Assembly: GCF_035818615.1 (NCBI RefSeq)
Contig: NZ_JAYKZY010000002.1
Span: forward strand, 3,164,501 to 3,228,500
Reading direction: 5' to 3'
Length of the DNA stretch: 64,000 bases
Source of the DNA: Sphingobium sp. CR2-8
GTDB lineage: Bacteria; Pseudomonadota; Alphaproteobacteria; Sphingomonadales; Sphingomonadaceae
Shown here: positions 17,207 to 28,923 of the stretch, in pieces
How the letters are laid out: the number at the start of each line of letters is the position of its first letter
How positions within the stretch are numbered: position 1 is the stretch's first letter
Notes under the pieces: generated by a model
Told to the model about the DNA's origin: nothing
The model's input: the letters and a program-made list of their open reading frames with translations, nothing else
Databases searched by the model: none
Program-made: the position numbers and the translations under genes

Positions 17207-17677
17207 TCAGAGCCGGAAGATGACGGTTGCGGCGAGCGCCTCATGCGGCGTGATCTGCGCGATCGGGATGGTGCCGATCAATGGATAGGCCTTGGCAAGC
17301 AACCAGCGAATCTTGTCGATAGTCACGGGCGCGAGGCCGTTGCGCTCGCATTTGACGAGCCATTCCTTCGCCACCGCCTCGAAAGTGTTGGCCGCAGCAT
17401 ATTTGGCGGCCATCCTCGCGCACTTTTTCTCCAGCGCCGGATCGATCCCCTCGGCAATCTTCTTCTTGGCTTCGTCGCGCCGGACACGCGCCTCCGCGAG
17501 GCTTATGGTTGGCCACCCCCCGAGATGAAGCTTCTTCTGCTTGTCCAGAAAACGGTAGTTGAAGCGTCATAGCTTCGAACCGTTGGGCTGGATGACAAGA
17601 TAGAGGTTCTGTGAATTGATAAGGTTCCAGGCCTTCGCTCTCGGCTTGGCGGCATTGATCTGGATGTAGGTCAGCAT
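17207..17677 (-). pseudogene. Remnant of a P4-type tyrosine integrase
   Basis: The N-terminal third of a P4-type integrase. From ATG 17677 the frame reads INAAKPRAKAWNLINSQN and LYLVIQPNGSKL, then TGA at 17567-17569 replaces the expected Trp codon (family pattern KLWR.NYRF). Beyond the stop the same frame continues with KKLHLGGWPTISLAEARVRR, IAEGIDP and a SAM-like core-binding region (FEAVAKEWLVK; LAKAYPLIGTIPIAQIT). The catalytic domain is missing altogether. Its start lies about 180 bases from the tRNA-like att copy at 17855, the same arrangement as the other integrase beside the tRNA. It is probably the leftover of an older element in the same site. Confidence 0.85.
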
Positions 17678-17678
17678 G

Positions 17679-18184
17679 GTCGTTTTCCCAGCAAGGCCGG
17701 GTCGATCCGAGGGCAACAAAAAGAGCAACATCTTGTGGTCGCTGCTGTTGCCCTTAGCCGGATTTCGCCGGACAGTGTCTGGCGATTTTCGGTCAAGAAA
17801 TGCTGTAAAACCAGCTGCTTGCTGGACCTTCCCGGACGTCGCCGGAAAGGTCTCTGGTGCCAGAAGAGGACTCGAATTCAGATTTTATGTAATTGTTATA
17901 AAATCTTAGTCTCGAAAATCGATGCCCTTCGATACCCTCACTTATACCCGCATATGGAAATAACGGGGCGGTTCGCTGCCCAAAATCGGCCTTTTGACAA
18001 TATTTTTCTATCTGTTGGAAGCTACCACAATCCGCCTGTGTTTGCAGCCGGTCGCGTCATTTTTCCTGTATTTGTGCGGAGCAGATTGCATCATAGTTTG
18101 GTCGCCTCACATGGTGACAAGCGAACTGGGTGCATCAGGTTTTCAATCAGCCACTTTATACCGAGGCAGATGATCCGGTCACGA
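17679..18184. other. Junction region left of the island
   Basis: About 500 bases without a recognisable gene. It contains the tRNA-like att copy at 17855-17876. To the right of it the sequence is AT-rich (TTTTATGTAATTGTTATAAAATC), unlike the GC-rich type III locus. A 213-codon plus-strand frame starting at 17735 gives no recognisable protein and runs antisense into the next gene, so it is not called. Confidence 0.6.
17855..17876. repeat. att-like copy of the tRNA-Leu 3' end (island left end)
   Basis: These 22 bases match the 3' end of the tRNA-Leu gene at 28835-28857 except for one missing C in a run (GGTGCC here, GGTGCCC in the tRNA). Both are in the same orientation. Direct repeats of a tRNA 3' end are the usual scar of integrases of the type encoded beside the tRNA, so this is the probable distal attachment site. 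Confidence 0.8.
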
Positions 18185-19423
18185 TCACTCTGCCAAACGC
18201 GGCTCTTCCAGATGCTTCTCGATCTGACCCGACTTTACCGGGTCGATCCTGTCAGCTTCGGCCAAGGCCCATCTTTCCCATGCTTCGAGCGTCTGTTTCG
18301 GGCGGAGCGATGTCCCCTCGTCCATGGCCCGCCTGACTTCGCTCACCAGCAACCGGATATCCTGGGCTTGCCGTAGCAATTCGCCGCTGACCCTCAAATC
18401 GACGAGGCGCTGCGCGTTGAGCGCGGCCAGTCTTTCCCTGCGTCGGTGTTCTTCGGCCTCGCGTCGGCGTTGCTGTTCCTCTTCGTCTTCCTTGAGGCTC
18501 CGCCTGAACCGCGCTTCGCCAGCGACGATAGCGCTGGCTGCGATCGAGGCGATCTTCGATTCGATCAAACCATCGGCATCGTCTGCCCAACTTGCGATTG
18601 CGGGCTGCCGGGTGTCGCTGACGATAGAAATGCGTAACACGGTGTTGGCGGGCAGATCGGGTGCAGGCAGGTTTCGTCCCGCTTGACGGACGGAGCGATG
18701 CCTTCCCACGATCTCGAAGCGCAGCGACAAGCTCATGTCGCCAATCCGCATGGCACCGTGAACTTCGTCATTGTCATCACGCGCAGAACCCGAATGGCCT
18801 CGCTTGTCGAGCGCGTCGAAAACTCCGCTCAAGATGCGCAAACGGCGTCGTGACAGCGGCGTGTCGAATTTCGGTGCCTCCCACCAATAAGCCCAGCCTT
18901 CACTTTTCTCCCGCCGCCGCTGTTCGCGCAGCAGGAGGTCGTTCAAGCCGCGATTGGGCGCATCGAGATTCTTGGGCGCGCGGGCGCGGCCGATCGCACG
19001 CAATTCTTGTTCCCGGAGTTCCTCCAGGTCCTCCGGCACATGGATCGAAACAAAAGGTCCATCGGAGGATTTCGGTGCGGCCGGTTCGAACAGATGGCCA
19101 AGCCGACTGTCGAGGCGGATGCGGCCGGTTTCGCCGGGGCGGCGTCCCGGCACCTTGGGTCGGGTTTCCACTTTTCGCCCTGCATGAACGCGGTTCCAAT
19201 GTCCCTGTCGTGGCAGGATCACGCCGTAGGATCGCAGGGCTTTGCGCAAGCCCACATCGGACATGCCGACCTTTGCTGCGAGATCGCGCATGGGGGCTGA
19301 CCAGGCAAAGTCCCAGAGTTGGTCGGGTAGGATATCGACGCCGCTGTAATAGACGTAACGCACGGGCTTTCGGTGCTCCTTTGCTTGGGGTGCGGAGCTA
19401 GATCGAATGGTATCGCGACGCAC
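18185..19423 (-). CDS. Hypothetical island protein with N-terminal HTH-like region
   Basis: Protein of 412 residues starting at a GTG; I do not recognise a named family. The N-terminal stretch (LWDFAWSAPMRDLAAKVGMS followed by DVGLRKALRSYGV and a G-H-W) looks like a helix-turn-helix that occurs at the start of hypothetical proteins on mobile elements. The middle is mixed, with a short beta-rich part (LSLRFEIVGRHRSVRQAG). The C-terminal ~120 residues are a long charged helix or coiled coil (SLKEDEEEQQRRREAEEHRR). A DNA-binding accessory role is plausible, not shown. Confidence 0.65.
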   Translation of the reverse strand: MRRDTIRSSSAPQAKEHRKPVRYVYYSGVDILPDQLWDFAWSAPMRDLAAKVGMSDVGLRKALRSYGVILPRQGHWNRVHAGRKVETRPKVPGRRPGETGRIRLDSRLGHLFEPAAPKSSDGPFVSIHVPEDLEELREQELRAIGRARAPKNLDAPNRGLNDLLLREQRRREKSEGWAYWWEAPKFDTPLSRRRLRILSGVFDALDKRGHSGSARDDNDEVHGAMRIGDMSLSLRFEIVGRHRSVRQAGRNLPAPDLPANTVLRISIVSDTRQPAIASWADDADGLIESKIASIAASAIVAGEARFRRSLKEDEEEQQRRREAEEHRRRERLAALNAQRLVDLRVSGELLRQAQDIRLLVSEVRRAMDEGTSLRPKQTLEAWERWALAEADRIDPVKSGQIEKHLEEPRLAE

Positions 19424-19984: not shown

Positions 19985-20914
19985 TCAACCTGCCTTTTTG
20001 ATGTCGGCCACCAGCACGCCGATCCGTTCCGAACAGACAGCCAAAACGACGCGGCCGAGTTCCTCGACCTGCACGCCAAGCCAGTCCAACTGCTCTTTCG
20101 TGATGCGGTAGTGCTTGGAATAGCGCGCCTTCACATAGGCTTCCTTCAGCTTGTCGAACAGCGCGCGATCCTGCCGTGTGTCCTGCGGCCAAACGTAGAC
20201 AAGGCGACGGTCGATCAGTTCAGCCTGCCCTCTCAAGAAGCCAAGGTTGTGCACATGCGGCGTGTAGAAAGTGCATACCAGCAACACACAATGATACAGG
20301 CGTTCCGTCGCTTGATGCATCAAAAAGGCCGCGTCTTTGAGCCTACCCTGATCGGCACTGAACTTGGCAGTCTCCAACATGCCTGATGCGCTTGGCATCC
20401 ACTCGCTGAAATACTCCTGCGCCATCTTGAGCGCCTGCTCGGGAGTCTTGGGCTTGGGCTGATGGAGTTCGACATCATCTCTTTCGTATAGCGCGATGCC
20501 ATCCTTCGCGATGTCCATGAAAAAGTAGCGCCCATGCGCCAGCGCGTCGTTCACTTCCTGCAAAGTATGCACGATGAAGTTGACAGGCGTGCGAATGGCT
20601 TTGCTGATCGTCTGCTCGGCATAGAGCCTAGCGTCCAGCTTCGACCAATAAGCCACCCGGTCCGTCAGGCGCTTGTCATTGACGATGATAAGCAGGTCGT
20701 AGTCGGACTGATAGCCCTTCGCCGTGTGCGGCTCATCGATCCAGCCGCCGCGTGCATAGGAGCCATAGAGAATGACCTTGTGGATGCGCCCCTTCTTCTT
20801 CCACTCGTGACGTGCGAGCGAGAGGGCATCATCGAATTCCTCGAACACGATCTGCATCAGACGTTCAAGTTCGCGCTGCTTCTGCGCCGGGAGGTGATCG
20901 AGATCGTTTCTCAT
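19985..20914 (-). CDS. Nucleotidyltransferase (MNT) - HEPN fusion protein
   Basis: A 309-residue fusion of a minimal nucleotidyltransferase and a HEPN domain. Residues 51-56 (GSYARG) and D71/D73 (SDYDLLIIV) form the polymerase-beta-type active site. The second half (from ~175) is helical and HEPN-like, with LKDAAFLMHQATERLYH and ARYSKHYRIT near the end. In split MNT-HEPN toxin-antitoxin pairs the MNT part AMPylates and silences the HEPN RNase; here both lie in one chain. The chosen ATG at 20914 is preceded by GGTGGA. A drug- or nucleotide-modifying role is an alternative, because kanamycin-nucleotidyltransferase-like proteins share this layout. Confidence 0.85.
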   Translation of the reverse strand: MRNDLDHLPAQKQRELERLMQIVFEEFDDALSLARHEWKKKGRIHKVILYGSYARGGWIDEPHTAKGYQSDYDLLIIVNDKRLTDRVAYWSKLDARLYAEQTISKAIRTPVNFIVHTLQEVNDALAHGRYFFMDIAKDGIALYERDDVELHQPKPKTPEQALKMAQEYFSEWMPSASGMLETAKFSADQGRLKDAAFLMHQATERLYHCVLLVCTFYTPHVHNLGFLRGQAELIDRRLVYVWPQDTRQDRALFDKLKEAYVKARYSKHYRITKEQLDWLGVQVEELGRVVLAVCSERIGVLVADIKKAG

Positions 20915-21643
20915 CAGCTTCCACCTAGCAATTCCGTCACGCCGATGCACCCGGTTACGCCGCTGATGGAGGTTGTGACCCCCGCGCCGCCGCGCGCTGC
21001 GCCACGCGCCGATCGGTCGCGGTTAGATAGAATCCGTAGGATTCTTCTATTAGCATTGTTAAAGGGCATTTTTTCCATGCAATATCATGATCTTAATACA
21101 AATTTAGGTTCCCGATAGGCCGAGTTTTCGGTTCCCGATAGGCCGAATCTGGCGGTTCCCGATAGGCCGAGTTGTGTCCGCACTTGTCCCAACGAGGCCA
21201 AAGATATTTGTTTCGTATGCGGAACAAATATTAAATTGCCCTTATTTCTCTTGTCCAGCTGGAGCCGGGCGCATCCGCATGGCTTTCTCACTGTCCGCAT
21301 CATTCTGGCTTCCTGCAATAGGCCGCCTAACTGCTCAAAACTATCGATCCGGCTGTGCTCATGCAGGCAATCCGGCATGGTTCGCGCATGGCTGGGCAAT
21401 ACCCTGTGAGGCTGCGTTTTTCCTCATGCGGTGGGGTCCATCGCCATCCTTAATTCGCAGACCAACGGGTATGATCCGACTGCATCGGCGCTCCGGCGTA
21501 GAAAAGGCCATTCTGGCGATGAAACGTCATGTGGCGAAGCGAAGGCCCGTCATCGATAATCGGCAGCGGTGGCGGAGCGATTAGCTCCCCCTACGCCCCG
21601 TCGCTTCGTCACCACCTTTCATTTGGATGTGGAATTGTCAGCG
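20915..21643. other. Gene-poor region containing iteron-like repeats
   Basis: A 730-base stretch with no convincing gene. It has a short inverted repeat (GAATCC..GGATTC) near 21031-21045, then an AT-rich segment (21050-21106), then three direct repeats (separate entry). A 104-codon minus-strand frame (21085-21399) is produced by reading through the repeats and is not called. AT-rich DNA next to iterons is how many plasmid origins look, but no replication initiator gene is present. Confidence 0.5.
21107..21170. repeat. Three iteron-like direct repeats
   Basis: Three exact copies of a 17-base unit (GGTTCCCGATAGGCCGA) start at 21107, 21130 and 21154, so they are spaced 23 and 24 bases, about two helical turns. 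They lie in an otherwise gene-free, AT-rich stretch. The spacing and identity suggest binding sites for a protein, such as a plasmid-type replication initiator or an island regulator. The repeat count is too small and spacers too short for a CRISPR array. Confidence 0.85.
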
Positions 21644-21898: not shown

Positions 21899-22257
21899 TT
21901 TTAATCGAGATTGCCGTTTGACTTTAGCGATGGCGACTGAAGTTGGCACCTTGGTGCGGCTGGTAAAATCATCAGCAGGATAACTGACATTCTGGCTGCG
22001 ACGCGCGATGTCTGCTTTAGCGGCGATTGTCTCCGCTGCCGGCTCGGCAAAGCTACCTAGATTGCCGACGGTCACCTTCAGAAAGGAGCCATAGTCTGCG
22101 TAAAAATGTGCGCAACTCTTTCCGCTTCATGCCATCTATAACCCTGAACATTTCATAGCGCGTGTCGGGATTTTAGGGTCGTAAATTCGCAATTTGTATG
22201 ATGCTATATCGATAGGGGATTCACAGCTTGAATCGGGTGCGATAGTAATCCATCTTG
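21899..22257. promoter_or_regulatory. Upstream region of the MazG-UDG operon
   Basis: About 360 bases, AT-rich at the right end. It should contain the promoter for the rightward MazG-like/UDG-like pair. I could not pick a convincing -35/-10 pair, and the MazG-like start lacks a clear Shine-Dalgarno sequence. No gene is called. Confidence 0.4.
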
Positions 22258-23403
22258 ATGAACCAACAACCGACTATTTTAGAGTTCACCCGGCAAGTCG
22301 AGCGGACCGATCGCCGACCAGAGTCGGACAGGTTGCGTATTGCAGTGCTCGGAATTTTCGGTGAACTCGGCTCTTTGATGAGTGAGATCAAGAAGGGCGT
22401 TCGCGAGGGGCCGAAGTACATTTCGTTTCGGACAACACTGGTCGAGGAAGCAGGGGACCTTCTTTGGTATTTTGCCGCGCTATCACTTACGATGGGTTGG
22501 GAGTTTAGCCGACTTTTATCCGCTGTCTTGGATGCGGAAGTCAGCGAAGGTAGCAGTTTCGCGAGTCTTCAGGGCCTTGTCGACAGGTTGCCGACCGATG
22601 CCTTCGACCCGTGGCTGTCTGCGGGTGAAAAAGCAGGCGCACTTGCTGCACACGTTGGGACCGGCGGTTCGGACGATGAACTTTACGATCTGGCAGTGTC
22701 AGCGCTGCGGGCTGCATTGATCGCTTTCAAGTCTGTGCAGCTGGCGTTTTCGGAGCCAATTGAGCATAATATTGAGAAAAGCCTTTCGCGCTTTCCGATC
22801 AGTAGAAAGCCACTCAAGCTCTATGATGAGAGGCTAACCGGTGAAGGAAAGGCTATAAGCGTCGATGAGCGTTTGCCTGCATTCCTGCCCGTAGAATTTC
22901 GAGAAAAGACCGTTGGGCGGAAGGTCGTTGTCGTGCAGTCTGCTTTCACGATCAAGATCGGCGATCCATTGACTGACAATATTGGAGAAGGAGATGATTA
23001 TCGTTTTCACGATGTCTTTCATCTCGCCTATGCAGCTGTATTAGGATGGTCACCTGTTCTTCGAGCTCTTCTCAAAGTGAAAAGAAAATCCTATCCTGAC
23101 TTGGACGAAAACCAAGATGGGGCACGTGCGATTCTCATTGAAGAAGGCATTTCAACTTTCATATTTAATCATGCAAAGCCGCATCTTTTTCGAGATTCGG
23201 CGGGTGTTGACTATCGTATTCTTTCGACGATCAAAGAATTTGTAAAAGGGTATGAGGTCGAAGATCAGCCGTTCTGGGCTTGGGAACGCGCGATTTTGCG
23301 TGGGTATGATGTTTTTCGCGAATTGACACATTTTCGAAGTGGACGAGTCACTCTCGACATGAGTAAGCGCGACATCTTTTTTGAACCATTGGATGTGCGA
23401 TGA
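22258..23403 (+). CDS. MazG-like nucleotide pyrophosphohydrolase with extra C-terminal domain
   Basis: Protein of 381 residues. The N-terminal ~80 residues carry a MazG-type metal-binding pattern: LGIFGELGSLMSEIKKG (E-x6-E) followed by TLVEEAGDLLWYFAAL (E-x3-D). Such enzymes hydrolyse (d)NTPs to monophosphates. The C-terminal half has a second conserved-looking block (YRFHDVFHLAYAAVLGWSP; RKSYPDLDENQDGARAILIE), rich in His/Asp/Glu, which may be another all-helical hydrolase-type unit. It overlaps the UDG-like gene by 4 bases (ATGA), so the two form an operon. Nucleotide depletion or cleansing during infection is possible; the substrate is unknown. Confidence 0.78.
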   Translation: MNQQPTILEFTRQVERTDRRPESDRLRIAVLGIFGELGSLMSEIKKGVREGPKYISFRTTLVEEAGDLLWYFAALSLTMGWEFSRLLSAVLDAEVSEGSSFASLQGLVDRLPTDAFDPWLSAGEKAGALAAHVGTGGSDDELYDLAVSALRAALIAFKSVQLAFSEPIEHNIEKSLSRFPISRKPLKLYDERLTGEGKAISVDERLPAFLPVEFREKTVGRKVVVVQSAFTIKIGDPLTDNIGEGDDYRFHDVFHLAYAAVLGWSPVLRALLKVKRKSYPDLDENQDGARAILIEEGISTFIFNHAKPHLFRDSAGVDYRILSTIKEFVKGYEVEDQPFWAWERAILRGYDVFRELTHFRSGRVTLDMSKRDIFFEPLDVR

Positions 23404-24074
23404 GTTGGGAGCAAACCTTCGTCGAACGCCTTGCGAGCGTTCAAATCTCCAATGTTTTCAATCCGTATTGCGACCATTGCGAAGTTCACGATCTCGTTGA
23501 CGCGGCCTCGATTCGGCGCTCCAATCTCGAAGCGATACTGGATCTCAGAAAATCGACGAGTGTCGATAGCATTTGGTTTGGTCGCGATCTTGGATATCGA
23601 GGAGGCCGCCGGACAGGGCTAGCCCTGACCGATGAAGTGGCGATGTTTAGCGCGGCAGGCGCTCTAAAGGCGGGTCCCAAAATCGCCCGTGCGACACATG
23701 GAACGCCTGTTGCGGAACGGACGGCGGCTGTAATCTGGTCGCTAATAAATCGCCTGCGACGACCGCCGATGCTGTGGAATGCGTTTCCGTTTCATCCTCA
23801 TGAACCAGAAGCGCCGTTCACCAATCGCGCGCACACCACGCGCGAACGCAGGCTCACCGGCTGGGCCATTGAAGCTCTTATCGATCGCTTTGACAACCCG
23901 CAGCTTATTGCGATCGGAAACGACGCCTCAAAAGCGCTCTCCGATCTTGGTTTTAAGCATCAGACGGCCCGGCATCCAAGCTATGGTGGGCAGCGGGAAT
24001 TCATAGAGACTATGGAGCGACTCCATGGCCTCTCACCGACCTTGCCGCAGAAGGCTGAGCCAAAACTGCTTTAG
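23400..24074 (+). CDS. Uracil-DNA-glycosylase-like protein
   Basis: Protein of 224 residues with motifs of the uracil-DNA glycosylase superfamily in order: FNPYC (20-24), a glycine/arginine-rich GRDLGYRGGRRTG (61-73), WNAFPFHPH (126-134), and RHPSYGG (191-197), which resembles the HPS loop of the family. This suggests a base-recognising or base-excising activity, perhaps on a modified base. It is co-transcribed with the MazG-like gene. Its stop codon overlaps that of the convergent thymidylate-synthase-like gene. Whether it still excises bases cannot be judged from sequence alone. Confidence 0.72.
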   Translation: MSWEQTFVERLASVQISNVFNPYCDHCEVHDLVDAASIRRSNLEAILDLRKSTSVDSIWFGRDLGYRGGRRTGLALTDEVAMFSAAGALKAGPKIARATHGTPVAERTAAVIWSLINRLRRPPMLWNAFPFHPHEPEAPFTNRAHTTRERRLTGWAIEALIDRFDNPQLIAIGNDASKALSDLGFKHQTARHPSYGGQREFIETMERLHGLSPTLPQKAEPKLL

Positions 24075-24892
24075 GCAATTCCACCAGATTTCCAGCACTC
24101 AGCCAGTAGGGTCCGAGTGTCGCCCGCCTTGCGGTTCTTCGCCCCCAGGTCGAGCACGGCTTCTGCAGCGATGATTGTCAACGGGCCAACCTTGGCTCCG
24201 GTGCATTGTGCTACGAAGCATAGGAGTCGGGACAAGCCGATCAGATTTCCGAGCGCCCGTTCTATGTACCAATGTGAGCGGTAGAAGGCCGAAAGCCTCA
24301 AAACATTGTCTCTGTCGATCTTAAAAGAGACATGGCTCAAGCAGGGGCCGCCCAGATTGTATTTTCCATCAGTGAGTGGATTGTAAGTCGCGATCTCCAA
24401 TGAGATATCGTCTAAAGAAACTTCGTAATGCGTCGTTGTCTTGGGTGGATTTTCAATCCGGCCTTTGAGCTTTCCAATCAGGACATCGAGAGGGTTTAGC
24501 TGGCGATTGCCTCTCATCATGGGAGACTTGTCATCATTATAGCGAATAGTCATCCGCTCGAAATATGTACCCCAGACTTTGCGTACTTTAGGTAAAACGA
24601 CCTGAAGATAGTATTCGTAGAATTCATCAGAGCCATTTTTAATCTGAGAATGGTATGTGTCGAGCGGGAATATAGTGTTAGCGACCGTATCAGTTGTCCG
24701 GAACTTATTATCCAGAGCAAATTTATCGAACGCTTTAATGATGGTCCTCTCGGATGCTGTCTTCATCGTCGGGTCGGTTATCGAATAAATTAGATTGTAT
24801 ACAGGCCTAGACGAAATCGAGAGAGCCTTAGTGGCCTTCAGCCACGCTGCCACGGCCGACGGGCTGTCATCAATCACGAGATAGTTCGGCAT
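24071..24892 (-). CDS. Thymidylate-synthase-like protein
   Basis: Protein of 273 residues that aligns by eye with the C-terminal half of thymidylate synthase and pyrimidine hydroxymethylases: GGPCLSHVSFKI with the probable nucleophile Cys184 (family PPCH), YRS at 204-206 (family QRS), GN at 215-216 (family PFN), and VGPLTIIAAEAV where TS has the G-x-x-x-x-x-x-DAH strand. An upstream NTIFP...WGTYFERM block matches the family's N-terminal part. The His after the Cys is Leu, so chemistry may differ. It is the last gene of the leftward operon, 6 bases after the protease gene. A role in pyrimidine modification or sensing is inferred. Confidence 0.65.
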   Translation of the reverse strand: MPNYLVIDDSPSAVAAWLKATKALSISSRPVYNLIYSITDPTMKTASERTIIKAFDKFALDNKFRTTDTVANTIFPLDTYHSQIKNGSDEFYEYYLQVVLPKVRKVWGTYFERMTIRYNDDKSPMMRGNRQLNPLDVLIGKLKGRIENPPKTTTHYEVSLDDISLEIATYNPLTDGKYNLGGPCLSHVSFKIDRDNVLRLSAFYRSHWYIERALGNLIGLSRLLCFVAQCTGAKVGPLTIIAAEAVLDLGAKNRKAGDTRTLLAECWKSGGIA

Positions 24893-24898
24893 CGAAAG

Positions 24899-25510
24899 CT
24901 AAATCCATATTAATCTTGGAGATCTAGCTAAGATGTATTTCGCTGTAAGCCAAGCATAGCCTCGCGTGCCCCAACCTTCGCCCCAAGAATTTTTGATGGA
25001 ATACTCATAACTTCCGCCTGAGGGGCGGAGACCGCAGATAACAACTGCGTGCCGACCCTCTATTTTGGCATTGTTCAAAAGATCAAGAGGGGCCAACCCC
25101 GTACACGCAAAAAATGGCGCGTCTATGTTGATTACTAAGCCAATCGCCCTGCCGCATTTGAGCGACCTTTCGACCGTCGAACCGTCAAATGGTTTGTCCA
25201 TCACATGGGCTTGGTGAAACTCACATGACGCGTTCAGGGGGTTTTCGCTTCTATATGGCCAATCAAGCTCGCTTGCCTGACCATCCAGAGCGAGACTATC
25301 GATCGCTGCGTCGATCGTCAGAGCGTAGGCGACTGGGCGGCAGGCTCGTAGGCTCGCCTGCCGATGCAAGGACTCGGGAGAGAGTAATTCCTTTGGGTCG
25401 CGAACTACCCGGTGGATATCGCTAACCGCAAACGAAAGACACGTCGGATGTGGCCCTTGGTCTCGTGCCAGCCCCAGGTCGATTTCGATAAAGACAGCGC
25501 TATCCGGCAT
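24899..25510 (-). CDS. Papain-like (C1) cysteine protease
   Basis: A 203-residue papain-fold protease without signal peptide or propeptide, so probably cytoplasmic and controlled by another protein. The catalytic set is visible: Gln18 and Cys24 (RDQGPHPTCLSFA), His154 (EGRHAVVICGL), Asn174 (NSWGEGWG). The block LSPESLHRQA...AALxxDGQ...WPY is also typical. The ATG directly follows the stop of the ImmA/IrrE-chagasin gene (TAA-ATG), so the two are made together. The neighbour's C-terminal domain looks like an inhibitor of this very protease class. Confidence 0.85.
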   Translation of the reverse strand: MPDSAVFIEIDLGLARDQGPHPTCLSFAVSDIHRVVRDPKELLSPESLHRQASLRACRPVAYALTIDAAIDSLALDGQASELDWPYRSENPLNASCEFHQAHVMDKPFDGSTVERSLKCGRAIGLVINIDAPFFACTGLAPLDLLNNAKIEGRHAVVICGLRPSGGSYEYSIKNSWGEGWGTRGYAWLTAKYILARSPRLIWI

Positions 25511-26536
25511 TTATTTTGTAGCGGCTTTCACAATCCGAGCGCGATTAGCTCGTGAAAGGCCGCTTTCGGGTGGCATAACGGAGAAGTTGAATGCAACCTC
25601 GCACAGAGGAGCGGCTTCCCATGGGCGTTTATGCTCAAACGGTAGTGACCCGACGCCTTTGGTGTCAGCGCGATAGAAAATGCGCTTTGCCGATGGTGCG
25701 CCTATCAAGTCGGGATCAAGGGATGTGACGGCGTCGAGTTCTGTAAGGCTTGCAGGTGGAGGAGCCTTCGGCAGCCACAAATATCCCGCACCGGCTTGTT
25801 GTTCGAGGCTTACAGTAATGGTGTCGCCGACGTTGACGGCAATGTCGGCTCGATTGTCCCCTTGGCTCAAGACCCAAGCATCGTATCGCGTCTCTGCGGC
25901 GGCGGATACATGGCCCAAGCGTTCCTTGATCTTCTTGGGCTTAATTTCGAGTAGTCGGGCTCTCTGTTCTGCGTTGATGACCCGATTGCGCTCTAATGCC
26001 CACACAGTGGCTTGATAACTCGAACCGCAACGGAGCGACAATTGGTAGATCGTATCCTCTTCTGCAAGGCGAGAGCGCGTCCAGCCCTGTTTATTCGCGT
26101 GATGGCCAATGAGCCACATTGGTAACAAGAAGGTTCCGGCAAATTCGTCCGCTTCGATCTCTTGTAAATACGAGGCGAAACCGTCGATCTTTGGGGCTTT
26201 CAGGCTGTGAGCCGCGCGGCGCAGTACGTTAGGGCTGTCGAGACTAGGTTCGTGAGCCATGAAGGCATGGCCTAATTCGTGGGCAGCCGTGAAGCGTTGA
26301 ACAGAGAGAGGACGCTTGGTGCTGATCATGACGCCGGGCTGATCGCCACGGATGTACGCCCCTAAAAGGCCATCCAGCGGCTTGAAGACCACTCTCACAT
26401 CGAGCCAGGCAAGCGCATCGAATATATCGACGCGCTCGTGAGTGGTCATGATCCGCTCACGAACATCGAGAAATCGTTGAACCTTTGTCGCGGCTGCAGC
26501 CCCTTTCAGGCGCGCGCGCCTTATGGCTTCATTCAA
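25511..26536 (-). CDS. ImmA/IrrE metallopeptidase fused to chagasin-like (I42) inhibitor domain
   Basis: A 341-residue two-domain protein. Residues ~35-195 are an ImmA/IrrE-family zinc peptidase: HELGH at 86-90 and the third ligand in EIEADEFAGTFLLP near 126-139. Residues ~232-325 match the chagasin/I42 fold of papain inhibitors: VNVGDTITVSLEQ, GAGYLW (249-254), GVGSLPF (294-300) and RPW (304-306) correspond to the three inhibitory loops. It overlaps the XRE regulator gene by 4 bases and is followed at once by a papain-like protease. ImmA-type peptidases typically cleave their partner repressor; the inhibitor domain probably restrains the protease until then. That mechanism is inference. Confidence 0.82.
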   Translation of the reverse strand: MNEAIRRARLKGAAAATKVQRFLDVRERIMTTHERVDIFDALAWLDVRVVFKPLDGLLGAYIRGDQPGVMISTKRPLSVQRFTAAHELGHAFMAHEPSLDSPNVLRRAAHSLKAPKIDGFASYLQEIEADEFAGTFLLPMWLIGHHANKQGWTRSRLAEEDTIYQLSLRCGSSYQATVWALERNRVINAEQRARLLEIKPKKIKERLGHVSAAAETRYDAWVLSQGDNRADIAVNVGDTITVSLEQQAGAGYLWLPKAPPPASLTELDAVTSLDPDLIGAPSAKRIFYRADTKGVGSLPFEHKRPWEAAPLCEVAFNFSVMPPESGLSRANRARIVKAATK

Positions 26537-26880
26537 GTGGTAGCGCTTTCCGAACGGGACCGTAGGTAGGTAGCAAAACGCTGCAATTCACCCATGTCCT
26601 GATCCGACAGGGTCTCAGCAGCGCGTGCGAGAAACTCCGTTCGCTCGCTAGCTTTCTGGGCGGACACACCGGTCGTAAAGAACTCAATGCCCCGGCCAAG
26701 TGCCTTCGCGATTTCAGAAAGCTGGGTGGCGCTCACTTGAGTGGTACCAGCCTCAATCGCTTCAATTTCATCAGGCGCAACTCCGATCATTTCTGCGAGC
26801 TCGTCGGCTGAGAGTTCAAGATACTCGCGAGCTTCCGTGACGCGTGCTGCTATATGCCGCTCGGTCGCGATATTAGGCAT
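26533..26880 (-). CDS. XRE-family helix-turn-helix regulator
   Basis: Protein of 115 residues with an N-terminal XRE domain (RVTEAREYLELSADELAEMI, VAPDEIEAIEAGTTQVSATQ, LSEIAKALGRGIEFF) and an acidic helical tail. It overlaps the ImmA/IrrE gene, the standard partnership in which the peptidase cleaves the repressor. It probably represses its own operon. The start at 26880 lies within the last codons of the preceding gene and follows a purine-rich GAAGAAAGAAA. A frame to 26916 begins in that gene's Lys-rich tail and is less likely. Confidence 0.88.
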   Translation of the reverse strand: MPNIATERHIAARVTEAREYLELSADELAEMIGVAPDEIEAIEAGTTQVSATQLSEIAKALGRGIEFFTTGVSAQKASERTEFLARAAETLSDQDMGELQRFATYLRSRSESATT

Positions 26881-27202
26881 TTTCTTTCTTCTTTTCTTTT
26901 TCAAAAAGAGCCGCAATTCGAGGAATGAGGTGCTCCTTCATTTCCTCGAAGCTGTCATAGCCACCCTCTTTGATCGCGCTTTCCGGAATTTGAAATTTGA
27001 CAACCTCTTCCAGCGTCACAAGGGCGCGAACCGCTCGATGGGAATCAATCTCCACCGCAGGTTTCATGATGTCTGAGGATGCAGGTTTGTCACCAGGAAG
27101 GGCGGCATCTGCCGTTTCGTCATCCCACCACCTTTCGAGCACGGCTTCCACCGCCGAGACGGGAAACACGGTCGGCAGGGTTTCCTTCAAGTCATTCGCC
27201 AT
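26873..27202 (-). CDS. Small acidic protein, first gene of the protease operon
   Basis: Protein of 109 residues with no family I recognise. It is acidic, has WW in the helix AVLERWWDDET, a probable strand-helix region (HRAVRALVTLEEVVKFQIPE), and a Lys/Glu tail. A strong AGGAGG lies 6 bases before the ATG, the best ribosome site in the island, so it may be made in excess. Its end overlaps the XRE regulator gene by 8 bases. It could be an antitoxin, substrate or sensor for the downstream peptidases; nothing in the sequence decides this. Confidence 0.75.
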   Translation of the reverse strand: MANDLKETLPTVFPVSAVEAVLERWWDDETADAALPGDKPASSDIMKPAVEIDSHRAVRALVTLEEVVKFQIPESAIKEGGYDSFEEMKEHLIPRIAALFEKEKKKENA

Positions 27203-27471
27203 GATGCCTCCTTCGCTGAGAATGCCAGATCATGAATCCAAAAGCAACAAAGGTTCACATTATGTTCTACTTAAAATCTGGGTTGAGATGATAAGGTCAC
27301 CAAGGGCGATCCTCATCAAAGCTTCGCATCTGCATTGTAGGTTTGACTGCTGGTGAAGACCATTTGCTTCTCGCCTCCGAGGCGTCCCGGAGCAGTCGAA
27401 TCGTTCATCGATTTAGAGAGGCCGCTCGATCGCAAAGTTCAAGGCGCTGCGGATGGCCATGCCATATCTCG
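27203..27471. promoter_or_regulatory. Promoter region of the protease/thymidylate-synthase-like operon
   Basis: This 269-base stretch lies upstream of the operon reading leftward from 27202 and downstream of the integrase gene. It is AT-rich near 27230-27290, with a GTTC-N7-GTTC direct repeat at 27252-27266 that could be an operator for the XRE protein. The AGGAGG ribosome site of the first gene is at 27208-27214. No gene is seen. Confidence 0.4.
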
Positions 27472-28673
27472 TTAGCATACTTTTGGGGACTTCGTAGCCA
27501 AGCCGTCCAGATAATCGGACCACACCTGCATCATCGCGACGCGCTCGTCCCAATATTCTCCGCGAGCATAAGCGCGCCTTACTGCGTCAGCCTCCGCGTG
27601 CGCCAGCTGTCGTTCAATGGCATCCGGATGCCATTTGCCCATCTCATTGAGCAAGGTGCTAGCCATGGCGCGAAAGCCGTGACTTGTCATCTCGTCGCCG
27701 GAATAGCCCAATCGACGCAGCGCGCCGTTCAGCGCATTCTCGGACATGGGTCGCTTAATGGATTGGAAGCCGGGGAAAACAAATTTGCCCGTGCCAGTGA
27801 CACCATGGATCGAGGTCAAGATTTCCAGAGACTGCCGGGATAGTGGCACGCGATGTGGACGCCGCATCTTCATTTTTTCGGCGGGGATCGACCAGAGAGC
27901 TTTGTCAAAATCGATCTCTGTCCATTCGGCGTGGCGCAGTTCACCCGGCCGAACAAAAACATGAGGAGCGAGCCGCAGGGCCGCTCTTGTAACTGCATGT
28001 CCGTCAAAAGCTGCGATCGCACGCATCAGCGGCCCGACCTGTTGACTGTTGGTTATGGCAGCCAGATGCTTCACCTTGGGTGTAGTCAGGGCGTCGCGTA
28101 GATTGGCAGACAGGTCATGTTCTGCCCGCCCGGTGGCAATCGCGTAGCGAAAGACCCGACCGCAGACGCTTCTCAGCCGTCGGGCAGTTTCGTGTCGGCC
28201 GCGCCCTTCGACCTGACGCAGGACGGCCAACAGTTCCATGCTTGTGATCTCGCTGATCTTACGATCACCCAACGAAGGGTATGCGAACTCGAGCAGCCAT
28301 TTCACCTTACCTAGGGTGATTTCGGCGAGCCCTTCGCGCTCCCGCTTCGCCAGCCACTCTTCCGCGACAATCCGAAAGCCGGTCGTTGCCTCGAATGCCT
28401 CACGTGCCTCAGTCTCCTTGCGCGTCGCTGTCGGGTCTAATCCAGACGCCAGCAGCTTGCGGGCTGCTTCTCTTTCTCTCGTGCTTCAGCAAGGGTAATC
28501 AACGGGAACACTCCCATCGCCATCGTCTTGGCCTTGCCGTCGAAGCGATAATTCATGCGCCAATAGCGACCGCCCTGAGGCGTGATCAGAAGGTAGAGTC
28601 CATGCCCGTCCGCCAGCTTGTAGGGCTTTTCGCGGGGCTTTGCTTTGGACAGCGCGAGGGATGAAAGAGCCAT
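27472..28673 (-). pseudogene. int: Island integrase (P4-type tyrosine recombinase), one-base frameshift
   Basis: P4-type integrase that would insert the island at tRNA-Leu. The first part (LALSKAKPREKPYKLADGHG; GGRYWRMNYRFDGKAKTMAMG) is the arm-binding domain. After LAEAREK the frame shifts at about 28473, and the other frame carries on with EAARKLLASGLDP, the core-binding domain, and catalytic residues in RPGELRHAEW, SHGFRAMAS, LAHAEADAVRRAY with the probable Tyr. The 1202-base span plus one base makes 401 codons, a normal length; expected REKREAARK needs AAAA where AAA is present. The start follows GGAG at good spacing. It lies 160 bases from the tRNA. Confidence 0.9.
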
Positions 28674-28774
28674 GAGGGTATCTCCTTTGGCCATGCTGGC
28701 CGATACCCACAAAGATACCTTCATGTACCCCGAATTCACAAATCCACGGGCGGAAACCAGCGGACGCCAGACAC

Positions 28775-28834: not shown

Positions 28835-28857
28835 TGGTGCCCAGAAGAGGACTCGAA
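28835..28857. repeat. att site within tRNA-Leu 3' end
   Basis: The 23 bases at the tRNA 3' end, repeated with one base missing at 17855-17876. They represent the attachment site regenerated next to the integrase. Confidence 0.75.
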
Positions 28858-28923
28858 CCTCCACGACCTTGCGATCGCCAGCACCTGAAGCTGGTGCGTC
28901 TACCAATTCCGCCATCTGGGCAC
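28835..28923 (-). tRNA. tRNA-Leu (anticodon CAG)
   Basis: Reads on the minus strand from G at 28923 to an encoded CCA at 28837-28835, 89 bases. The acceptor stem GTGCCCA pairs with TGGGCAC. The anticodon stem CCAGC/GCTGG encloses loop TTCAGGT, anticodon CAG, decoding CTG. A long variable arm and the T-arm GGTTCGAGTCC are present, as expected for a class II tRNA. Its 3' end is the island's attachment site and is left intact by the insertion. Confidence 0.97.

Follow-up and report, generated by a model that had tools for sequence, protein, structure and literature searches.

A seven-gene unit in a tRNA-Leu island of Sphingobium sp. CR2-8 as a candidate inducible nucleotide-modifying conflict system

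A 64,000-nucleotide stretch of the Sphingobium sp. CR2-8 genome (contig NZ_JAYKZY010000002.1, positions 3,164,501 to 3,228,500; hereafter the window) contains a unit of seven genes at 22255-27202, which sits in an 11-kb insertion at a tRNA-Leu gene and which we consider rather probably to be an inducible nucleotide-modifying conflict system in the general sense. Five co-directional genes on the minus strand, recovered by open reading frame (ORF) analysis at 24071-27202, encode a protein resembling acyl carrier proteins (gene 1), an XRE-type helix-turn-helix (HTH) repressor, an M78 (ImmA/IrrE) metallopeptidase fused to a chagasin (I42) domain, a papain-like C1 peptidase, and an enzyme resembling thymidylate synthase (TS). 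An earlier note, made from the sequence alone, had described these five genes as one operon, and the overlaps of 8 and 4 bases, the TAA/ATG junction and the 6-base gap on which it relied were all located; the sequence AAGGAGG precedes gene 1. The unit is larger than first noted, as two convergent genes had been overlooked: a gene for a putative uracil-DNA glycosylase (UDG), which overlaps gene 5 by four bases, and a preceding gene for a MazG_C-type nucleotide pyrophosphohydrolase (Table 1).

The operon is a real unit and not a chance assembly, because all five families recur in one and the same order at 32 of the 41 loci recovered by searching for the TS-like protein only. For this survey, genome contigs were scanned with the TS-like family and the neighbouring genes were then surveyed with profiles grown from the window genes. 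Within reach of the TS-like gene, the HTH family was present in 36 loci, M78 in 37, C1 in 36, and gene 1 in 34; UDG occurred in 12 loci, HMUDK, a family named for 5-hydroxymethyldeoxyuridine (5-hmdU) DNA kinase, in 25, either one of these two in 37, and MazG_C in 23. A scripted test of order and spacing was passed by 31 of the 32 five-family loci. In the exception (L025) the script had picked a second, distant HTH gene, and the proper HTH gene of this locus is in order. The co-occurrence elsewhere that the earlier note had proposed to look for thus exists. It is also apparent from the fusion protein, which was matched in 39 of 396 genomes of the order: the 12 best matches (E ≤ 1.2e-49) represent 11 genomes including this one, and all 11 loci fetched for them carry gene 1, HTH, C1 and TS-like genes, whereas most of the 19 weaker loci fetched (L057-L075) represent different M78 or I42 proteins, and a TS-like gene occurs in 2 of them and a C1 gene in 1. 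A comparison of protein lists (best 120 matches per search; 90 contigs for the TS-like protein, 71 for the fusion and 21 for C1, with at least 10 common to all three) under-counts co-occurrence, and the locus survey was used in its place. Near-duplicate loci (L004, L046, L051, L053, L054, L055, L022) were left out of the residue and I42 counts given below and of the TS tree, which also omits L007, L038 and L043 with short or split TS genes; the 53 wide loci referred to below exclude L001-L004, L022 and L046-L075 (duplicates or short flanks), and L088-L116 enter no tally.

The TS-like protein is rare. Among 385 genomes of the class it occurs in 7 (this one counted); 22 plasmid records out of 72,556 contain it, 13 being predicted as conjugative, and none of 50,697 phage records gave a match. 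Relatives of the gene set range from soil-dwelling bacteria to halophilic archaea. Gene 1, HTH, M78, C1 and TS face UDG and MazG_C at plasmid loci of Bradyrhizobium, Sphingobium, Sinorhizobium, Sphingomonas, Sulfitobacter, Acuticoccus and Burkholderia, a Rhizobium locus (L085) has UDG and lacks MazG_C, and in Haloarcula the five genes are accompanied by HMUDK and by an annotated phosphopantetheinyl transferase (PPTase) and dTMP kinase. One IMG/VR contig (L116) carries the TS-like gene with M78-I42, C1, HMUDK and a second, PF00303-type TS alongside, and such second TS genes were also seen in L008, L016, L020 and L078. A close copy of the system is located on a 5.6-Mb contig of Sphingomonas sp. 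C8-2 (identities of 91% for the TS-like, 94% for the fusion and 82% for the C1 protein), and plasmid CP034356.1 of the same strain contains a distant second TS-like gene. In a Sphingomonas metagenome-assembled genome (L007, 6770-7783) the TS-like gene is split into two open frames. A recurrent protein of about 197 amino acids is encoded beside the TS-like gene in 15 loci (L018, L023-L037 and others); Pfam gave no match for the member in L026, and the protein is possibly a further component of the system.

Among the 53 wide loci, UDG is present in 20 and HMUDK in 29, both together in none and neither in 4; in these last four, contig ends limit the stretch to between 5.2 and 10.0 kb. A quick TS tree of 57 rows, in which 19 of the 54 inner branches have poor support, shows at least six changes of the UDG/HMUDK state. 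The simplest reading of this exclusive alternation is that the two families deal with one common product. In the genome of the host no HMUDK was found, and the control genomes were likewise silent. The residues Asp63, Asn127 and His192-Pro193-Ser194, which we take to be motif residues of the UDG superfamily, are kept in 19 of 19 UDG-like proteins, which also share the stretch R-D-L-G-Y-R-G-G-R-R-T-G, invariant apart from its Tyr (18/19). Relatives in L076 and L084 exceed the cut-off of PF03167, the window protein and L030 have no match to it, and the PDB profile match to the UDG TM0511 reached only E 0.24. The MazG_C protein was identified clearly (PF18722, 228.3 bits, cut-off 29.7), its family being present in 33 of the 53 wide loci, and a dCTP-deaminase-type gene is located near 20 of them. 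Supply of deoxyuridine monophosphate (dUMP) by enzymes of the dCTP-deaminase and MazG types fits the presence of Asn216. These partners, like the PPTase genes near 25 of the 53 loci, the HMUDK alternative and the mobile island, had also escaped the earlier note. As background, a 5-hmdU DNA kinase step follows the synthase in the thymidine hypermodification of phages. Phage PhiW-14 is reported to form 5-hydroxymethyl-dUMP (5-hm-dUMP) from dUMP by a phage-specific synthase (PMC5977210). Pathways of the SP10, PhiW-14 and M6 type resemble in this respect the scheme proposed below. Unlike them, the window system has UDG instead of HMUDK, is of a kind that is cellular and plasmid-borne, and includes a repressor-protease switch, a carrier protein and a papain-like enzyme.

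For the TS-like protein, Pfam yielded no family, PF00303 being absent from both the window protein and its L082 relative, and its profile had no match among PDB sequences at E 0.01. The TS model TIGR03283 (NCBIfam) aligned with residues 169-245 (E 1.6e-11; 44.1 bits, below the cut-off of 174.55). The AlphaFold model (pLDDT 90.8) has a TS fold, Cys184 is invariant in the alignment of 64 TS-like proteins, and the identity as a TS-like enzyme proposed earlier is upheld. The model resembles MilA, a CMP hydroxymethylase. The protein shares the fold and the catalytic Cys with MilA, the dCMP hydroxylase AfhB and ThyA, but differs from them in having 10-15% identity in structure comparison and no PF00303 match. 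The host's sole ThyA match (contig C2:1887348-1888252; L106, L107) is split between two frames at a G run, most likely through a sequencing error, and no ThyX was found in the genome.

Gene 1 was assessed through its aligned relatives, which keep the predicted attachment Ser in 59 of 59 and the preceding Asp of the D-S motif in 57 of 59 sequences. Some of these relatives are annotated as acyl carrier proteins, and in the model of gene 1 a helix begins at residue 54. It looks like an acyl carrier protein with Ser54 as the predicted phosphopantetheine attachment site, although Pfam gave no match for the window protein. The PPTase-type genes near 25 of the 53 wide loci lend indirect support to such an attachment. 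The earlier proposal that gene 1 might be the substrate or an antitoxin found no support, and the antitoxin in particular was set aside because of the invariant serine.

The regulatory part of the operon could be assigned from direct profile matches. The HTH protein scored 36.6 bits with HTH_3 (cut-off 23) and matched RmrA (E 7.3e-11) and capH (E 5.5e-10) in PADLOC, and the fusion protein scored 38.1 bits with Peptidase_M78 (cut-off 22) and 38.6 bits with Inhibitor_I42 (PF09394, cut-off 27.2), with capP as top PADLOC match (E 4.6e-16). These matches agree with the repressor and protease pair suggested before. The zinc-site residues His86, Glu87, His90 and Glu126 are invariant in all 57 non-redundant M78 proteins beside TS-like genes. 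CapH/CapP and the ImmA-type and PprI-DdrO pairs are similar in that an HTH repressor adjoins an M78 metallopeptidase whose HExxH motif is intact and accompanied by another Glu. Here, in contrast, a chagasin domain is attached to M78, and in place of a cyclic-oligonucleotide-based anti-phage signalling system (CBASS) the operon contains genes for a papain-like protease and a TS-like enzyme. Single-stranded DNA activates CapP, which cleaves CapH (PMC13373217; for PprI see PMC10904395). Since several close relatives of the fusion protein have 345 amino acids, its true start may be slightly upstream. The host genome contains three further M78 matches, all at other places.

A linkage was observed between the chagasin domain and the C1 peptidase. 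The latter scored 27 bits with Peptidase_C1 (PF00112, cut-off 20.7), and its active-site residues Gln18, Cys24, His154 and Asn174 are each kept in 50 of 50 proteins; all residues singled out by the earlier note (Cys24 of C1, His86 of M78 and Cys184 of the TS-like protein) are in place. The I42 profile matched all 51 M78 proteins that adjoin a C1 gene (E ≤ 7e-5, in a second round that included the positives of the first, in which 8 of the 51 had no match) and 0 of 6 M78 proteins without a C1 neighbour (L018, L059, L062, L082, L083, L087; E up to 10, both rounds); neither L018 nor L083 had an I42 match in Pfam at E 0.1. Gly251 (51/51) and Trp306 (48/51), presumably residues of the chagasin binding loops, are conserved beside C1. 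In L018, which has lost C1, the stretch aligning with I42 is kept, but position 251 is Gln and position 306 Glu. The predicted connection between chagasin and papain-like domains thus holds in that they co-occur and are lost together, and I42 as mere decoration was set aside because it tracks C1. Independent losses of C1 are few: its presence changes at least three times on the TS tree, and one of these changes is L017/L019, which are without any M78. As in known chagasin (I42)/papain (C1) pairs, the inhibitor stands beside its target class here, with loop residues kept alongside C1, but in the present case it is fused to a metallopeptidase within a regulator. A C1-I42 neighbour pair outside the system occurs in L067, where an I42-containing frame comes after a long C1 peptidase.

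From these components we infer the following course of events, whose target would probably be a phage or plasmid. The HTH protein would keep the operon silent until infection or DNA damage activates the M78 peptidase as in CapH/CapP, and cleavage of the HTH protein would then permit expression. MazG_C, elsewhere also the dCTP-deaminase-type enzyme, would supply dUMP, and the TS-like enzyme would add or alter a C5 group of the deoxyuridine nucleotide, a reaction in which the holo-carrier would act as donor, acceptor or scaffold. The resulting nucleotide would be incorporated into newly made DNA, where the altered base would be converted to damage or a block by UDG, through excision that leaves abasic sites, or, in other versions of the system, by HMUDK through phosphorylation, to the benefit of the host and presumably as an anti-phage measure. 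The papain-like enzyme may be a second effector or a brake restrained by the chagasin domain on M78. This specific logic of an altered base plus an executioner we hold to be somewhat short of an even chance. Its most far-reaching form appears improbable: here the TS-like enzyme would act on a carrier-held nucleotide or a phosphopantetheine-delivered group, UDG and HMUDK would be interchangeable executioners on the resulting DNA base, and the chagasin-caged papain protease would be part of the trigger.

Several observations weigh against this scheme. The role of the carrier protein is its main riddle and is left unexplained by it; Foldseek with the gene 1 model returned nothing at E 0.001 (best 0.34), and among the clustered ORFs near the window system there is neither a PPTase nor a dCTP-deaminase-type gene. 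In the stretch surveyed the system carries UDG and not HMUDK, and assignment of the window protein to the UDG superfamily draws on relatives and motifs, as it has no Pfam match itself. MazG_C was not found in 20 of the 53 wide loci, and in L017 and L019 the TS-like gene, HMUDK and MazG_C stand alone among other genes, without carrier, HTH, M78 and C1. In an alignment with host ThyA, a weak one (probability 21%), the Asp after QRS and the SRR Arg pair differ in the TS-like protein; as we take these residues to serve as folate contact and in phosphate binding, respectively, an ordinary use of folate and phosphate by the TS-like protein is doubtful. An operator common to the gene 1 and MazG_C promoters was dropped, as no exact 10-mer is common to the gene 1 promoter (27203-27472) and that of MazG_C, with weak near matches only in the one sequence pair compared.

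Among other explanations, the system might serve self-marking, a lasting hypermodified base in the DNA of the plasmid or host acting as escape from restriction or as a self mark, with UDG clearing stray or unfinished bases. The combination of a TS-family enzyme with HMUDK does recall phage hypermodification, one HMUDK relative is annotated as 'putative DNA base hypermodification protein', and the predicted conjugative nature of 13 of the 22 plasmid records would suit such a function. However, UDG takes the place of HMUDK in 20 of the 53 loci, a repressor-protease switch fits a burst better than constant marking, and none of the 50,697 phage records was matched, so that self-marking is doubtful, with a modest chance of being correct. 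Alternatively, MazG_C and the dCTP-deaminase-type enzyme could drain dNTPs during infection and the TS-like enzyme remove dUMP, with no special base being made and UDG policing uracil only. dCTP deaminase is known in phage defence, and the frequency of both gene types (33 and 20 of 53 loci) speaks for such an attack on the nucleotide pool; the carrier protein, HMUDK and the mutual exclusion of UDG and HMUDK are left unexplained by it, no deaminase is located near the window system, and we regard it as unlikely.

A free small molecule, either a nucleoside antibiotic or a nucleotide signal built on the carrier protein, is likewise unlikely as the product. Carrier and PPTase genes would be accounted for, and MilA, which the TS-like model resembles, belongs to the mildiomycin pathway, but UDG and HMUDK are DNA-directed families and no ligase, transporter or synthase family recurs among the neighbour clusters. 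The tracking of C1 by I42 and the location on plasmids would also agree with a protease-centred toxin-antitoxin or addiction module in which the papain-like enzyme is the toxin, I42-M78 the antidote and the nucleotide genes are passengers. Yet the whole loci L018, L062, L082, L083 and L087 keep TS-like and HMUDK genes without C1, which makes C1 an optional part and such a module quite improbable. An assembly of unrelated genes by chance has practically negligible probability; nothing was found in its favour, and it is already contradicted by the 32 of 41 loci, which extend across phyla.

The earlier note knew of no described system with this combination. No title or abstract among the literature matches listed describes the whole gene set, and to this extent the statement stands, but there is overlap between its enzyme components and systems of the DefensePredictor paper (PMC13092281, 2026). 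The enzyme kind is partly known because systems with thymidylate synthase and 5-hydroxymethyluracil kinase domains were validated there in E. coli defence. The same text names MazG and MazG-C as predicted, not validated, lists UDG with HTH in the legend of predicted systems and cites Burroughs 2015. By their description, these systems resemble the present family in the TS plus 5-hmdU kinase kind, MazG-C and UDG. The terms 'acyl carrier', 'carrier protein', 'phosphopantetheine', 'chagasin', 'papain' and 'ImmA' do not occur in the accessible portion of the main text (PMC13092281), and the literature matches listed gave no description of the carrier protein, the chagasin-papain pair or the UDG/HMUDK exchange. 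If the proposed scheme is true, bacteria and archaea would share an inducible editing of deoxyuridine nucleotides in which the edited DNA base is then met by a glycosylase or a DNA-base kinase. It would be a prokaryotic counterpart to the 5-hydroxymethyl-dU toxicity of human cells, where excision of 5-hmdU by SMUG1 is reported to yield toxic abasic sites (PMC12699328). It would also place carrier-protein chemistry, a new kind in an immune nucleotide pathway, and the chagasin/papain pair within immunity, and give a role to MazG_C and a distinct UDG subfamily.

Table 1. Genes of the seven-gene unit and features of the surrounding island, in window coordinates.
Feature	Position	Strand	Basis
Gene 1, acyl-carrier-protein-like, 109 aa, predicted phosphopantetheine site Ser54	26873..27202	-	aligned relatives
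XRE-type HTH repressor, 115 aa counted from ATG	26533..26880	-	HTH_3, PADLOC
M78 (ImmA/IrrE) metallopeptidase fused to chagasin I42 domain, 341 aa, TTG start	25511..26536	-	Pfam, zinc ligands
Papain-like C1 peptidase, 203 aa, Gln18-Cys24-His154-Asn174	24899..25510	-	Pfam, active-site counts
TS-superfamily nucleotide enzyme, 273 aa, Cys184	24071..24892	-	TIGR03283 partial match, AlphaFold model, invariant Cys
Putative UDG-superfamily protein, 224 aa, Asp63, Asn127, His192-Pro-Ser	23400..24074	+	relatives passing PF03167, motif residues
MazG_C-type nucleotide pyrophosphohydrolase, 382 aa	22255..23403	+	PF18722
Island integrase, two open frames (27472-28305 and 28437-28739)	27472..28739	-	both cluster with integrase-like ORFs of other loci
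tRNA-Leu (CAG), insertion site	28835..28921	-	tRNA search
17-bp direct repeat, right island end	28841..28857		repeat, empty site
17-bp direct repeat, left island end	17860..17876		repeat, empty site

The island boundaries were confirmed by an empty site in 2 of 11 loci of relatives compared, in which 17230-17876 (L093) or 17517-17876 (L097) joins directly to 28835 and onward. In 500-base windows the GC content is 45-62% within the island, compared to 60-71% in the flanks. The integrase, in two open frames, is probably broken, and the island may therefore be fixed in place. Two further genes on the minus strand belong to the island cargo. One (18185-19423) encodes a 412-amino-acid protein with no convincing Pfam, NCBIfam or PADLOC match, and the other (19985-20950) encodes a HEPN and nucleotidyltransferase protein, a 45% identical homolog of which adjoins MazG_C in Sphingomonas paeninsulae (L080).

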